Positions 29,613-34,737 of a stretch of 64,000 nt of DNA are shown piece by piece. The DNA comes from an uncultured Flavobacteriales bacterium. GTDB lineage: Bacteria; Bacteroidota; Bacteroidia; Flavobacteriales_E; Vicingaceae. Below the pieces are notes generated by a model that had not been told where the DNA came from, ran no database searches, and worked only from the letters and a program-made list of their open reading frames with translations. The translations under genes and the position numbers were made by a program. The first letter of the stretch is position 1. Each line of letters opens with the position of its first letter. The stretch spans positions 1-64,000 of the forward strand of contig CAJQON010000037.1 of assembly GCA_905479995.1 (NCBI GenBank), in the 5' to 3' direction.

Positions 29613-30770
29613 TTAAAATGCCTGTTTTATATCATTGATAATGTCATCGGCATGTTCTAATCCAACAGATATTCTTATTAATCCTGGCAATATACCTACT
29701 TCATTTCTTTCTTCTTCTGTGAGTTTAGAATGCGTTGTTGATGCCGGATGAGTGGCTATACTTCTAGTGTCACCCAAGTTTGCCGTAATTGAAACCAATT
29801 TTAAGGCATCTAAAAATTGGCGTCCTTTTTCTACTCCACCCTCAATTATAAAGCTCACAATTCCACCTCCTGCTTTCATTTGTTTTTTGGCTACCGCATA
29901 TTTTGGATGGGAAGGTAAAAATGGATATTTAACGAGTTCAACTTGAGGGTGTTTTTCTAACCATTGGGCTACTTTTAATGCATTTTCTGAATGTCTATCC
30001 ATTCGTACGGCCAATGTTTCTATACTTTTGGAAATTACCCATGCATTAAATGGCGATAAAGCTGGACCAGAATGACGCGCAAACCCTTGTACTTCATCAA
30101 TTAGGTTTTGTTTCCCCGCAATTAATCCTCCTAACACTCTTCCTTGTCCATCTAAATATTTTGTGGCAGAATGAATTACTAAATCTGCTCCAAATTTTAT
30201 GGGTTGTTGTAAGTAAGGTGTAGCAAAGCAGTTGTCTACAATGTAAAGTAGTTTGTTTTCTTTAGCAAATTCTCCTAACCATTCTAAATCCAATATATCT
30301 ACTCCAGGATTTGTTGGTGTTTCTACAAAAACCAATTTGGTGTTTTCTTGCACGGCAGCTGCCCAATTATCAGTATCATCAATGTCTACGTATGTAAATG
30401 TTATTCCCCATTTGGGTAATATTTTGGTTAATATGGTATGTGATGAACCAAATATGGAGCGACAAGCCAATACATGATCGCCTTGTTTAAGTAATGCTCC
30501 AAAGGTGGTAAATACTGCTGCCATTCCTGTTGCTGTAGCCCAGCCTGCTTCGGCTCCTTCTAAGGCGCAAATTTTTTGGATTAATTCTGTGGTGTTTGGG
30601 TTAGAAAAACGGCTGTAAATATTTCCTTCTACTTCATCGGAAAACATTGCTCTCATCTGCTCAGCATCATCAAACACAAAACTTGACGTTAAATGCAATG
30701 GTGTTGAGTGTTCGTTGTATTGCGATCGTTCGCTTTGAGTTCTTATGGCTAATGTTTCAAATTTTTTCAT
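29613..30770 (-). CDS. metZ: O-succinyl/acetylhomoserine sulfhydrylase (Cys/Met metabolism PLP enzyme)
   Basis: 385 aa, a PLP-dependent transsulfuration-family enzyme. Seen: IYSRFSNPNTTELIQKICALEGAE, ATATGMAAVF, VDNCFATPYLQQPIKFGADLVIHSATKYLDGQGRVLGG with the PLP lysine in SATKY, and the C-terminal RISVGLEHADDIINDI. Because metX (homoserine acyltransferase) is in the same operon, direct sulfhydrylation to homocysteine is the likely role. Last gene; its ATG overlaps the osmC stop. Confidence 0.93.
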   Translation of the reverse strand: MKKFETLAIRTQSERSQYNEHSTPLHLTSSFVFDDAEQMRAMFSDEVEGNIYSRFSNPNTTELIQKICALEGAEAGWATATGMAAVFTTFGALLKQGDHVLACRSIFGSSHTILTKILPKWGITFTYVDIDDTDNWAAAVQENTKLVFVETPTNPGVDILDLEWLGEFAKENKLLYIVDNCFATPYLQQPIKFGADLVIHSATKYLDGQGRVLGGLIAGKQNLIDEVQGFARHSGPALSPFNAWVISKSIETLAVRMDRHSENALKVAQWLEKHPQVELVKYPFLPSHPKYAVAKKQMKAGGGIVSFIIEGGVEKGRQFLDALKLVSITANLGDTRSIATHPASTTHSKLTEEERNEVGILPGLIRISVGLEHADDIINDIKQAF

Positions 30771-31183
30771 AATTCCTTAATGGTATAGGTTGCAGTAATT
30801 TCAATTTCTTTGTTTAAACTTAGAGCTACTGAACAATATTTTGTTAATGTTAGTTCTATGGCTTTCTCAACTTTAGTAGAATCTAAATTTCCGGTTAATC
30901 CAAAATGAATGTTAATGGTTTGAAATGCTTTGGCGGGTGTTTCATCTCTTGTTGCTGAAACCTCAACTTGATAGCCAACTAACTCTTGTCGTTGTTTGCT
31001 GAGTATTAATCCTAGGTCTATGCTAGCGCAGCCACCCAAACCCATTAGTACTAATTCCATTGGACGAGCTCCTTTTCCTTCTCCGCCAATAGCAGGGTTG
31101 GCATCAATGTTTATGGTAATTTTATCTTCAGTTGTTGCCTCATAATGGAAGGCTTTGTTTATTCTTTTTAAGTTTACTTTCAT
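30767..31183 (-). CDS. OsmC family protein
   Basis: 138 aa with the OsmC/Ohr fold: NPAIGGEGKGARPMELVLMGLGGCASIDLGLIL carries the first conserved Cys, and LTKYCSVALSLNKEIEI the second. Such proteins can reduce organic peroxides through the two thiols or bind sulfur compounds. Its placement between cysH and metZ in a sulfur operon suggests a role in sulfur chemistry. Overlaps metZ by 4 bases. Confidence 0.92.
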   Translation of the reverse strand: MKVNLKRINKAFHYEATTEDKITINIDANPAIGGEGKGARPMELVLMGLGGCASIDLGLILSKQRQELVGYQVEVSATRDETPAKAFQTINIHFGLTGNLDSTKVEKAIELTLTKYCSVALSLNKEIEITATYTIKEL

Positions 31184-31192
31184 GCTGTTATT

Positions 31193-31882
31193 TTATAAGT
31201 GTAATCCACATTCTGTTTTAGGGTTATTGTTCCACCTGCCTTCTCTTCCTTTTCCAGGAACAGTACAGTGTTTGCAACCAATAGAAAAATAGCCTTTTGC
31301 TACTAATGGGTGAAATGGAAGTTCATTTACTTTGATGTAATTTTCTCTTTCTTCTTTAGTGACATCTAACAATGGGTAAAACTTCAATATTCCACCTCTT
31401 TCTTCAAAAATATCTAATGATGCTCGATGATCTGATTGCCATTCCATTAAACCAGATACCCAAACCGTAAAGTTGTCTTTTATATTTTGTAAAGGTTTCA
31501 CTTTGTTTACTGAACAACATAGGTTTGGATCCTTTTTCCAAGTTTCATCGGTGGTAGTGAAGTCATGTTCCCATTTTTCGGCTCCTACATTCTCTACTTT
31601 CAATCCATAAAGATTGGTCAACTCTTCCTTATACTTAAGTGTTTCATCGAAATGATAACCGGTATCTATAAAGTATATTTTTTGTTGGTTGTTTATTGTT
31701 GAAAATACGCGCAACAAAAATGCAGAAGTAGCAGCAAAAGATGATGTTAGCATCACTTCTTGAGGCAAAAAGTCTTTGTACAATTCTGTTATCCTTTGCT
31801 CTACAGAAAGTTGATTGTATTTTTTGTTTAGCGCAGCAATTTGCGTTACAGTAAAAGTTCGTTTTAAGGTATTTGGCTCCAT
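31193..31882 (-). CDS. cysH: Adenylyl-sulfate reductase (CysH, 4Fe-4S type)
   Basis: 229 aa. The PAPS/APS reductase fold is seen in EVMLTSSFAATSAFLL, FIDTGYHFDETLKYK and the C-terminal ECGLHL with the catalytic Cys. Two further Cys pairs (LCCSVNKV and CKHCT) are the 4Fe-4S ligands of the APS-using type, so APS rather than PAPS is the expected substrate. It provides sulfite for cysteine and homocysteine synthesis. 121 bases downstream of hom. Confidence 0.93.
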   Translation of the reverse strand: MEPNTLKRTFTVTQIAALNKKYNQLSVEQRITELYKDFLPQEVMLTSSFAATSAFLLRVFSTINNQQKIYFIDTGYHFDETLKYKEELTNLYGLKVENVGAEKWEHDFTTTDETWKKDPNLCCSVNKVKPLQNIKDNFTVWVSGLMEWQSDHRASLDIFEERGGILKFYPLLDVTKEERENYIKVNELPFHPLVAKGYFSIGCKHCTVPGKGREGRWNNNPKTECGLHL

Positions 31883-32003: not shown

Positions 32004-33233
32004 TTATACTAAAACCTCTTCTTTAACAGAGGCTAATGTTAGTTCATCAATTAAATTATCATTCTCCAAAGCCAATATGGAGATCTTTTCTTTTTGAAGA
32101 TTGAATTTTATGGCCGCCAAATTCTCTAAAGAAATTTTGCCAATAAATTGCTTGCCATAAATATCTAAAGGATATAGGCTCACAAATTCGTCTTCAATAT
32201 CTTGTAATGAATAAGTATCTTTAGTAGAAAGAATTACTGAAATGACATTGGTATTGTTCACTAAGTAATTTTCATTTGCTAGTTTCTTATAATTGTATTG
32301 ATAGCCTCGGTCTATGGCTTTTAAATCGGAATAAATTACCGATCCAGTAGGTAAACTTCCAGCTCCTTTGCCTTTGTAAAATTGACTCCCAATGTCTTTC
32401 CCTTCTACTACAACTCCATTAAATTCGTTTTCTACGGTAAATAAATCATTGTTAGCACTTATTAAAGTTGGCAAAACAGATAAGGTTAGTTGATGTCCTA
32501 CTAATTCTGCTTTGGCAATTAATTTAATTTTGAGCCCATGCTGTTTCGCAAATTCAACATCTTGCTTAGAGATTCCTTCGATACCAATGTTTAAAACTTG
32601 TTCTGGCTTAAGTATTTTTCCAAAAGCATGAGCTGTAATAATAATTAGTTTATACAACGCATCAAACCCACCAACGTCTGAAGTTGGATCAGCTTCAGCA
32701 AACCCTAATTTTTGAGCTTCTAATAAGGCATCATTGTATGAAACTTCTTCGTTAAAAAGCTTACTTAAAATATAGTTTGACGAACCATTAAAAATTCCTT
32801 TTACTGCGTTTATAGATTCGTTGGCAAATAAATCATTCAACACTCTAATGATTGGTATACTACCGCAAACGGCTCCTTCATATAAGAAGGTTCCATTGTT
32901 CTCTTTTTCAAGTTGAATTAAATCCGCTAAGTTTTCTGCAATTAGTTTTTTATTGGCTGAAATTACTCTCTTTCCAATTTCTAAATTCTCTGCTACTAAA
33001 CCGTATGCTTCTTTTGCCGAACTAATTAATTCAACCACCACATCCATGTCTTTATCTAAAACGGTTTTTTCGTTAGTCGTTTCAATAATTGAAGGAACAG
33101 CCTTTCGTTGTTTTGAATCGTTTTTTACAATTATTGTATGTAATCTTTCGGCATTTTCATTTTTGGCTAAGTAATCTTGAAATCCTTGACCTACAACCCC
33201 AAATCCGTATAATTTTATGTTTTTTGTTCCCAT
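32004..33233 (-). CDS. hom: Homoserine dehydrogenase
   Basis: 409 aa, monofunctional. NAD(P)-binding LYGFGVVGQGFQDYL, the catalytic signature GFAEADPTSDVGGFDALYKL, GSLPTGSVIYSDL, and a C-terminal ACT-like segment (VISVILSTKDTYSLQDIEDEF). It makes homoserine, the substrate of MetX. Its ATG overlaps the metX stop by one base (TAATG), so the two are coupled. Confidence 0.95.
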   Translation of the reverse strand: MGTKNIKLYGFGVVGQGFQDYLAKNENAERLHTIIVKNDSKQRKAVPSIIETTNEKTVLDKDMDVVVELISSAKEAYGLVAENLEIGKRVISANKKLIAENLADLIQLEKENNGTFLYEGAVCGSIPIIRVLNDLFANESINAVKGIFNGSSNYILSKLFNEEVSYNDALLEAQKLGFAEADPTSDVGGFDALYKLIIITAHAFGKILKPEQVLNIGIEGISKQDVEFAKQHGLKIKLIAKAELVGHQLTLSVLPTLISANNDLFTVENEFNGVVVEGKDIGSQFYKGKGAGSLPTGSVIYSDLKAIDRGYQYNYKKLANENYLVNNTNVISVILSTKDTYSLQDIEDEFVSLYPLDIYGKQFIGKISLENLAAIKFNLQKEKISILALENDNLIDELTLASVKEEVLV

Positions 33234-34285
33234 TATATTGCAATTTTTAATCGTTTAACTTCTTTTTTATTTTGTTGAGCATAAAATTTTTCAAGCTCAT
33301 TTTTTAATTGTTCTGTTTCTATTAAAAACCCATCGTGTCCGTACAGAGAGTTTATTTCAACGAATTCACTATTGATAATTCCTTGGTGCAAGACTTCAGA
33401 TTCCGATACCGGAAAAAGAATATCTGAACTAACAGCAACTACCAATGTTTTCGCTTTTATTTGACTCAGTGCTTGGTAAATTCCATTTCGATTTCTAGCT
33501 ACATTGTGACTATCCATTGCCTTAGATAAAAACCAATAGGAATAAGCATTGAATCTATCGACCAATTTTTCTCCTTGGTAATTTTGATAACTGGCAGCAT
33601 TAAAATCATCGCTCAATTCATCATTATCTTGCTGAGTTGCGTTATAAGTATCATAATTTCTATAACTCAGTAAAGCAATTGCTCTTGCAGCTTTTAACCC
33701 TTTTAATCCTGCGTCAGCAGCATCAGAAAACCAGGTTCTATCGGCTTTAATGGCCAAACGTTGGGTTTCATTAAATGCTTTTCCCCATGGTGAGTGTTGA
33801 GCGTTGGTAGCTACCAAAACTAAATTTTCTGTCAAATTAGGTCGTTGTATGACCCACTCAACAGCTTGTTGTCCGCCTAAAGAACCACCCAATAAGGTGT
33901 CGATTTTTTCAATTTTTAATTCTGCTCTTAACAAGTCTAATCCTTTTACAATATCTCTAATGGTAAATTGAGGGAAATGATGGAAGTAAGGATTTCCAGT
34001 ATCTGGATTAATAGATAAGGGCCCGGTCGATCCATAACAAGAACCCAAGACATTGGCACAAATAATAAAGTGCTGTTCTGGATTGTAAAACTTTCCTTTC
34101 CCAACTAATCCATTCCACCATTCTTCTGGGTTGGAGTTTGCTGTTAGTGCATGAGTTATCCAAATAACATTGTTTTTTTTGTTGTTCAGTTTGCCAAAAG
34201 TGGTGTAACCAATAGTTATTTCAGCTAATTTTCTACCTGACTCTAACTGAAAAGTGTTTTGATAAGTATATGTTTTATTGCTCAT
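33233..34285 (-). CDS. metX: Homoserine O-acetyltransferase (alpha/beta hydrolase)
   Basis: 350 aa from the ATG at 34285, which gives the family N-terminus MSNKTYTYQNTFQLESG. The open frame extends upstream to a GTG at 34363, but those 26 residues are not family-like and lie in the leader. Alpha/beta hydrolase with nucleophile Ser in GGSLGGQQAVEW, the ITHALTANSNPEEWW segment, and SLYGHDGFLIE with the catalytic His. Acylates homoserine for methionine synthesis. First gene of metX-hom-cysH-osmC-metZ, behind a riboswitch and a Cys/Met-rich leader peptide. Confidence 0.94.
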   Translation of the reverse strand: MSNKTYTYQNTFQLESGRKLAEITIGYTTFGKLNNKKNNVIWITHALTANSNPEEWWNGLVGKGKFYNPEQHFIICANVLGSCYGSTGPLSINPDTGNPYFHHFPQFTIRDIVKGLDLLRAELKIEKIDTLLGGSLGGQQAVEWVIQRPNLTENLVLVATNAQHSPWGKAFNETQRLAIKADRTWFSDAADAGLKGLKAARAIALLSYRNYDTYNATQQDNDELSDDFNAASYQNYQGEKLVDRFNAYSYWFLSKAMDSHNVARNRNGIYQALSQIKAKTLVVAVSSDILFPVSESEVLHQGIINSEFVEINSLYGHDGFLIETEQLKNELEKFYAQQNKKEVKRLKIAI

Positions 34286-34384
34286 TGTTTTGTGATTTAA
34301 CCCTGAGGTAAAGTCAGGATATAGATTAGGGTATAGCGATTCCAGCTCGTGGAAACGAATCACCTTAATTTCAAGAAGTTTTTA

Positions 34385-34436
34385 GAAAATAAAAGTGATG
34401 CTTAGTGGTTGCAACAGCAACACATACATAGCATCA
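34385..34436 (-). terminator. Attenuator hairpin of the met operon
   Basis: On the minus strand TGATGCT...AGCATCA (outer stem, 34430-34436 with 34396-34402) encloses GTTGC-TGTT-GCAAC, followed by CTTTTATTTTC. The 5' arm and loop of the inner stem are the TGT/TGC codons of the leader peptide, so a ribosome there would open the hairpin. It lies 100 bases before the metX ATG. Confidence 0.65.
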
Positions 34437-34533
34437 TATATTCCGATTTAGAAACGGAATTATTGGATAAGCTTTTACCTTTCGAGCCAGAAGGCCTTAC
34501 TTGGTTTTTTGAGTTTTTGTTAATTGTTTTCAT
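34402..34533 (-). CDS. Putative Cys/Met-rich leader peptide of the met operon, 43 aa
   Basis: A 43-codon ATG frame between the riboswitch and metX. The N-terminal two thirds are Asn/Ser/Lys-rich and unstructured; the last eleven residues are MMLCMCCCCNH, five Cys and three Met among eleven codons. Codons for the final Cys run (TGT TGC TGT TGC) form the 5' arm and loop of the downstream terminator stem. This is the layout of a transcription attenuator sensing charged tRNA-Cys (and perhaps tRNA-Met). A shorter start at Met33 would give the 11-residue peptide alone. Not a recognised family; translation is inferred. Confidence 0.6.
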   Translation of the reverse strand: MKTINKNSKNQVRPSGSKGKSLSNNSVSKSEYMMLCMCCCCNH

Positions 34534-34543
34534 TTTGCAATTC

Positions 34544-34663
34544 TTTATATGTCCCCACTATTGGGATAGGAGTTGGCACCGGTTTTCCAATTTCGAATAT
34601 TCGAAACTTTAAGTTGGTTGCCAGAAGGTCAAAGAGCCTATTCTCTCGCTTCTTCTGTATAAA
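34544..34663 (-). ncRNA. SAM riboswitch (SAM-I/S-box type)
   Basis: On the minus strand the conserved S-box segments occur in order: GAGAGA, AGGCTC, TTGACC, CTGGCAACC, then GGTGCCAACTCC and a CCC/GGGG hairpin. TTTATA at the 5' end and TATAAA at the 3' end can pair as P1. S-adenosylmethionine binding would report methionine sufficiency. No T-run follows P1; instead the leader-peptide ATG lies 10 bases downstream, so the output may act on that frame or on the later terminator. Position upstream of metX agrees with known Bacteroidota practice. Confidence 0.85.
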
Positions 34664-34706
34664 CAATTACAAATCACGATTGGTGATGTATAACTGAAAT
34701 TCGAAG

Positions 34707-34737
34707 CAAATGTAAATATAATTTCGTTACAACAAAA
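34707..34737 (-). promoter_or_regulatory. Promoter of the met operon
   Basis: On the minus strand TTTTG, 18 bases, then TACATTTG, a perfect -7 match. Transcription would begin about 40 bases upstream of the riboswitch. Confidence 0.6.

Follow-up and report, generated by a model that had tools for sequence, protein, structure and literature searches.

The window, i.e., the whole stretch of 64,000 nucleotides that was analyzed, carries on its minus strand a run of five genes that the preliminary description had named as a metX, hom, cysH, osmC, and metZ operon. Comparison with NCBIfam upheld these names at the family level, with the matches of metX and osmC lying below the curated cut-offs (cf. 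Table 1). The metX gene most likely starts at the ATG at position 34285 rather than at the mechanically called GTG at 34363. An S-box aptamer had been proposed upstream of metX, and the Rfam covariance search indeed gave one match in the window, which covers the full length of the RF00162 model (positions 1–108) with a score exceeding the gathering score of 44.4 and an E value of 1e-11. The short frame ending in MMLCMCCCCNH and the hairpin with a T-run over its last Cys codons were likewise found as described. The range of 34385–34663 given for the whole element turned out to be too narrow, since it misses the 5′ strand of a P1 extension on one side and an antiterminator segment on the other.

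Table 1 Coordinates of the features found at the metX locus
Feature	Coordinates	Strand	Evidence
Candidate Bacteroidota -7 promoter box (TACATTTG)	34707..34714	-	sequence, flavobacterial sigma-A consensus
P1 extension, 5′ strand (UUUGUAAUU), pairs with 34534-34542	34665..34673	-	MFE fold, conservation
SAM-I (S-box) riboswitch aptamer	34542..34665	-	RF00162, 61.1 bits
P1 extension, 3′ strand (AAUUGCAAA), abuts leader AUG (leader initiation region)	34534..34542	-	MFE fold
Leader peptide ORF, 43 codons (MKTINKNSKNQVRPSGSKGKSLSNNSVSKSEYMMLCMCCCCNH), stop TAA	34402..34533	-	conserved in 82 distinct loci
Control codons Cys-Met-Cys-Cys-Cys-Cys	34411..34428	-	Cys-rich end common to all leaders
Terminator hairpin (segment 1 : segment 2) over last codons and stop	34396..34436	-	folding, covariation
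Antiterminator segment 2 (AUCACUUU)	34392..34399	-	alternative pairing, folding
Terminator U-tract (UUUUAUUUU)	34386..34394	-	sequence
Antiterminator segment 3 (AAGGUGAU)	34359..34366	-	complementarity z = 9.5 (15 loci), folding
Short hairpin immediately following segment 3, with similar counterparts within the genus	34337..34357	-	sequence, folding
metX, homoserine O-acetyltransferase, first operon gene	33233..34285	-	TIGR01392, 331 bits, below curated cut-off of 500
hom, homoserine dehydrogenase	32004..33233	-	NF004976, above cut-off
cysH, phosphoadenylyl-sulfate reductase	31193..31882	-	NF002537, above cut-off
OsmC-family protein (osmC)	30767..31183	-	NF008009, 87.5 bits, below cut-off of 138
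metZ, O-acyl-homoserine sulfhydrylase	29613..30770	-	NF006003, above cut-off

By its covariance model, the aptamer is of the SAM-I type and presumably binds SAM, and the metX operon provides the downstream sulfur/methionine genes that are typical of this class. Farther upstream, the candidate -7 box matches the flavobacterial sigma-A consensus TAnnTTTG (PMC9723704) and is accompanied by a TTTG at 34733–34736 (minus strand), so that transcription is predicted to start near 34701. Between this predicted start and the aptamer lies a palindrome, ATCACCAATCGTGAT (34673–34687, minus strand), which is retained as TCAC-N5-GTGA in several members of the genus and might be either an RNA hairpin or a DNA operator.

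Distribution and coding character of the Cys-rich leader

The distribution of the leader was followed in 149 relatives, from which 60 aptamer loci of the family and the wider class were fetched; 42 of them precede metH and 18 precede metX- or metZ/metY-type genes, these counts taking in related genomes whose loci are not independent. A strict leader, defined by at least three Cys among the last 14 residues and an ATG start close to the aptamer, was present at 16 of the 18 metX/metY-type loci, and a 17th leader (genome G012), which ends in LCCYNR, falls outside these. None of the 42 fetched metH-type aptamer loci had a strict leader, which rules it out as a general feature of Bacteroidota SAM aptamers. 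Named genomes with MetX (Vicingaceae MAGs, Mucilaginibacter, Pedobacter, Olivibacter, Adhaeribacter, Parapedobacter, and Albibacterium) contributed 80 loci, 79 of which have the aptamer, and 76 of these 79 have the strict leader. The two sets overlap partly, in Vicingaceae genomes, and yield 82 distinct leaders; the recurrence of the layout in so many distinct sequences is therefore not due to chance. In a second class-level set, leaders occurred mostly with MetY-type first genes (about 70–79% identity to the Mucilaginibacter protein), and no association was seen with the remoter MetZ-like first genes (34–40% identity).

The genome from which the window derives has a second SAM aptamer, ahead of metH (L001, G000:C8:5621-5726), which is followed by a terminator-like G+C hairpin (CCCCTTTC/GGAAGGGG) with a T-run and no Cys leader ORF. 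A version of the leader with two Cys was observed in genome G084 (L028), where a SAM aptamer is followed by MTITSSKSTFQACCITRMR ahead of metY.

Comparison of the 82 distinct leaders bore out the conservation of a Cys run, in frame and with free exchange of TGT and TGC (242 and 190 Cys codons, respectively). The preliminary description had expected the end to be rich in both Cys and Met; Met codons are frequent and absent from some leaders, leaving Cys as the signal common to all. Among 19 independent pairs, substitutions at the three codon positions showed an excess at the third, both in the leader body (88, 82, and 123; p = 0.007) and in the last eight codons (7, 14, and 23; p = 0.012), and no such excess past the stop codon (26, 27, and 26; p = 0.99). 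For 49 pairs, the body had a pN/pS ratio of 0.43 and the tail one of 0.32. These effects of coding selection are modest; more weight attaches to the fact that start position, Cys run, and stop are all conserved. Judged by this comparison of sequences, the leader ORF is coding, and it has two hallmarks of a ribosome-mediated attenuator: (i) coding selection and (ii) a short frame rich in codons for an end product of the pathway (CMCCCC; 82 distinct loci).

The peptide had no match in NCBIfam, and tblastn found no copy in its own genome besides the leader itself; a scan of the same genome for the TGY-run pattern gave 28 pattern matches. A function of the peptide as such, for example in metal or thiol binding, is suggested by its C-terminal Cys cluster and is highly improbable, given a body that varies in length (25–59 aa) and sequence, the lack of a family match, and a position tied to aptamer and terminator.

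Pairings around the leader start and the Cys codons

At 82 of 93 loci, the leader ATG lies 5–9 nt past the aptamer (8 nt in the window, with the start at 34533), and the nucleotides between them form base pairs with the sequence flanking the aptamer on its 5′ side, so that P1 is lengthened up to the AUG. This extension amounts to 9 bp in the window leader, and its sequence differs between clades while the pairing is kept: UUGUAAUU/AAUUGCAA in the genus of the window, GGUU/AACC in Mucilaginibacter, GUCUU/AAGAC in Olivibacter and Albibacterium, and GUAAUUG/CAAUUAC at locus L112. Across 87 loci, the pairing score of the flanks was 11.86 for each leader's own strands, compared with 9.74 for shuffled (z = 11.3) and 10.08 for swapped ones. 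At metH-type aptamers, the flanks did not pair above shuffles (z = -1.2), and a P1 extension was accordingly ruled out as a general trait of SAM aptamers.

The MFE fold of 34528–34700 contains the P1 extension together with most aptamer helices. The helix of the ligand-bound state thus overlaps an initiation region, as it does in translational riboswitches, and since the P1 extension covers the leader initiation region up to the AUG, SAM would act via translation of the leader. No alternative partner that would release the leader AUG was found, and the fold of the free RNA retains the extension; a helix of this stability could persist even without SAM.

The terminator hairpin, with 7+7 bp followed by TTTTATTTT, spans the last codons and the stop of the leader ORF. 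The first Cys codons (34414–34428) lie in its 5′ side and loop, while the last Cys codon (34411–34413) and the stop codon lie in its 3′ side, and the MFE of the 176 nt around it is lower than that of shuffles (z = -3.0). In Vicingaceae, the 3′ arm of the terminator (segment 2) can pair alternatively with a segment 3 located 30–40 nt downstream. This competing antiterminator hairpin had been missed when it was proposed that a ribosome paused on the Cys codons melts the terminator, a proposal with which the overlap of terminator and Cys codons agrees. Elsewhere in Vicingaceae, segments 2 and 3 read AUCAUUCUU/AAGAGUGAU, UAUCGUUCA/UGAACGAUG, UACAUCUUU/AAAGAUGUA, and AACAUUACC/GGUAAUGUU.

Because MAFFT misses the structural register of segment 3 across clades, a swap-and-shuffle test was used for the 2:3 pairing beside counts of pairs. 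In the 15 loci of the Vicingaceae set, the score was 17.8 for own segments, 12.4 for swapped, and 11.5 for shuffled ones (z = 9.5), with two of the 15 (G011 and L103) not above chance. In an alignment of 11 sequences, the covariation scores of both 1:2 and 2:3 were reached by none of 500 shuffles and exceeded those of all slid registers. Folding of the window sequence gave the terminator when segment 1 was included and the 2:3 antiterminator when it was left out. Vicingaceae leaders therefore possess a predicted terminator and a mutually exclusive antiterminator, as known for attenuators.

In Mucilaginibacter, the 2:3 pairing was above shuffles (z = 5.1), with own segments no better than swapped ones. 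Pedobacter has a near-invariant CUUCC/GGAAG helix, which shows no covariation, and no clear U-tract terminator; its expression platform may differ from the Vicingaceae layout. As the automatic terminator search returned weak or no hairpins at many Mucilaginibacter and Pedobacter loci, we do not claim the same terminator there.

A putative two-input attenuator and its alternatives

What emerges from sequence comparison is a conserved architecture, a coding frame, a P1 extension, and two alternative hairpins. These led us to hypothesize that the leader is a two-input transcription attenuator, which would turn the operon on only under joint scarcity of SAM and Cys, a reading that we consider the probable one. 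From these elements we infer that SAM binds and keeps ribosomes from initiating on the leader, that ribosomes stall, and what happens under plentiful Cys. With SAM bound, the aptamer would close P1, and its extension would cover the nucleotides up to the leader AUG; no ribosome would load, the terminator would form over untranslated Cys codons, and transcription would end before metX. With SAM low, the leader would be open to translation. If Cys-tRNA were low as well, a ribosome would stall on the Cys codons and mask segment 1, and segment 2 would then pair with segment 3 in a trp-like antiterminator, allowing the operon to be transcribed. If Cys were plentiful, the ribosome would reach the stop codon and depart, and the terminator could re-form. 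The last step is the weakest, since segment 2 would be covered by the ribosome while it stands at the stop codon. With ribosomes that are closely coupled to transcription, read-through might occur whether Cys is low or plentiful.

The preliminary description had pictured SAM and charged tRNA as two signals integrated in series. The aptamer, the conserved Cys leader, and the overlapping terminator fit two signals; owing to the P1 extension, they are probably not independent. A version in which SAM is sensed separately, with Cys-tRNA acting on the terminator and no effect of SAM through leader translation, would account for the presence of both sensors and one terminator. It is nevertheless unlikely, as no separate SAM-controlled terminator was seen between aptamer and leader, and merely 8 nt, paired into P1, separate the two.

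Rather unlikely, too, is an ordinary SAM-I transcription switch, in which P1 would compete with the terminator or antiterminator, the ORF would be untranslated or irrelevant, and the TGY runs would merely build the hairpin. The aptamer and terminator are both there, the MFE fold shows complementarity between the U-tract and the A-rich initiation region, and the metH aptamer of the same genome is itself followed by a terminator-like hairpin in place of a Cys leader. However, the AUG spacing, the Cys-rich end, and the immediate stop are kept though the hairpin sequences differ between clades, TGT and TGC interchange freely, the third-position excess ends at the stop codon, and metH aptamers lack all these leader features.

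We give a similarly low probability to an inverted or uncoupled logic, in which the leader would expose or hide RNA for Rho, or full translation would give read-through as in pyrBI. The coverage of segment 2 by a ribosome at the stop codon and the Pedobacter loci devoid of an obvious U-tract terminator are in line with it, but the clear hairpin, U-tract, and covarying antiterminator of Vicingaceae are not, and the Cys runs point to sensing of Cys-tRNA.

Compared with known systems, the two-input attenuator resembles SAM-I riboswitches in its full-length RF00162 aptamer ahead of Met genes and differs from them in its expression platform: in place of a terminator or of the ribosome-binding site of the regulated gene, there appears to be the initiation region of a leader peptide together with an attenuator. 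With trp/his-type and Cys-codon attenuators, it shares a short ORF, a run of control codons, and mutually exclusive terminator and antiterminator, whereas here a riboswitch apparently governs leader initiation, the terminator stem itself contains the control codons, and both phylum and genes are different. The polycysteine leaders of mycobacteria are Cys-codon attenuators as well. The rtpA (anti-TRAP) leader of B. subtilis combines a T-box with a Trp-codon leader peptide and thus also has two RNA-level sensors in series, but there the T-box, as the first sensor, responds to the same amino acid, and no aptamer is known to gate leader initiation. A further Cys-codon attenuator is uORFC-8-2 of cysS in Rhodobacterales (PMC8632094), and leader-peptide attenuation has been suggested in flavobacteria (PMC9723704).

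The nearest published riboswitch-uORF interplay that we found in the open-access literature is that of Mycobacterium tuberculosis metE and ppe2, where B12 riboswitches occur with uORFs and act as translational OFF switches (PMC11260477). These leaders likewise unite a riboswitch and a translated uORF; their ligand is B12, and the sections considered here describe no amino-acid-sensing control codons with a terminator (PMC11260477). The SAM-II metA leader of Sinorhizobium meliloti has a SAM riboswitch, an upstream AUG, and a terminator between two AUGs, but its second AUG starts metA itself, and no control codons are described in the part of the paper considered here (PMC9373788). In open-access PMC literature, we found neither a pairing of a SAM riboswitch with a Cys leader nor a leader-peptide attenuator gated by a riboswitch. 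Taken singly, Cys-codon attenuators and SAM-I aptamers are both known. Kipkorir et al. 2024 (PMC11260477) note that the effect of riboswitch-associated uORFs on expression was still to be addressed.

On balance, we lean toward a widespread Bacteroidota RNA in which a riboswitch controls initiation of a leader, control codons sense the tRNA of a second metabolite and decide on transcription, and one terminator serves both. If this is true, it would be a natural two-input RNA gate, with a riboswitch working through ribosome-mediated attenuation, that spans several Bacteroidota orders and is absent before metH in the sampled genomes. It would also offer a ready test case for transcription-translation coupling, in a phylum where knowledge is scant, and a compact design for synthetic gates.

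Supply of methionine and cysteine

In the genome of the window, no serine acetyltransferase scored over the cut-off of TIGR01172 or NF041874 (cysE/epsC), and the two strongest matches, when inspected, were hexapeptide transferases in sugar clusters. The same genome encodes a CBS-type protein (TIGR01137, 484.8 bits, a little short of its cut-off, 510) along with one of the CGL type, and in a set of 46 genomes of the order, CBS-like matches occurred in 43 and cysE-like matches in four. Since no clear serine acetyltransferase is found and a cystathionine beta-synthase is present, homocysteine probably feeds both Met/SAM and Cys. Going by gene content, homocysteine is thus the probable source of cysteine, and both SAM and Cys would be supplied through the metX operon; a two-input gate, if real, would explain how one homocysteine supply is balanced between SAM and cysteine.

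The clearest cysE-like genes were those of G012 (L050) and G030 (L067), whose leaders have fewer consecutive Cys codons, although two cases prove nothing. In genome G102, two SAM aptamers (L199 and L201) are followed by Cys-rich short ORFs, and the genes behind them, named by eye, are an ATP-grasp-like/LLM-monooxygenase pair and a SusC-like TonB receptor; at these loci, the pairing of aptamer and leader may also control sulfur scavenging.
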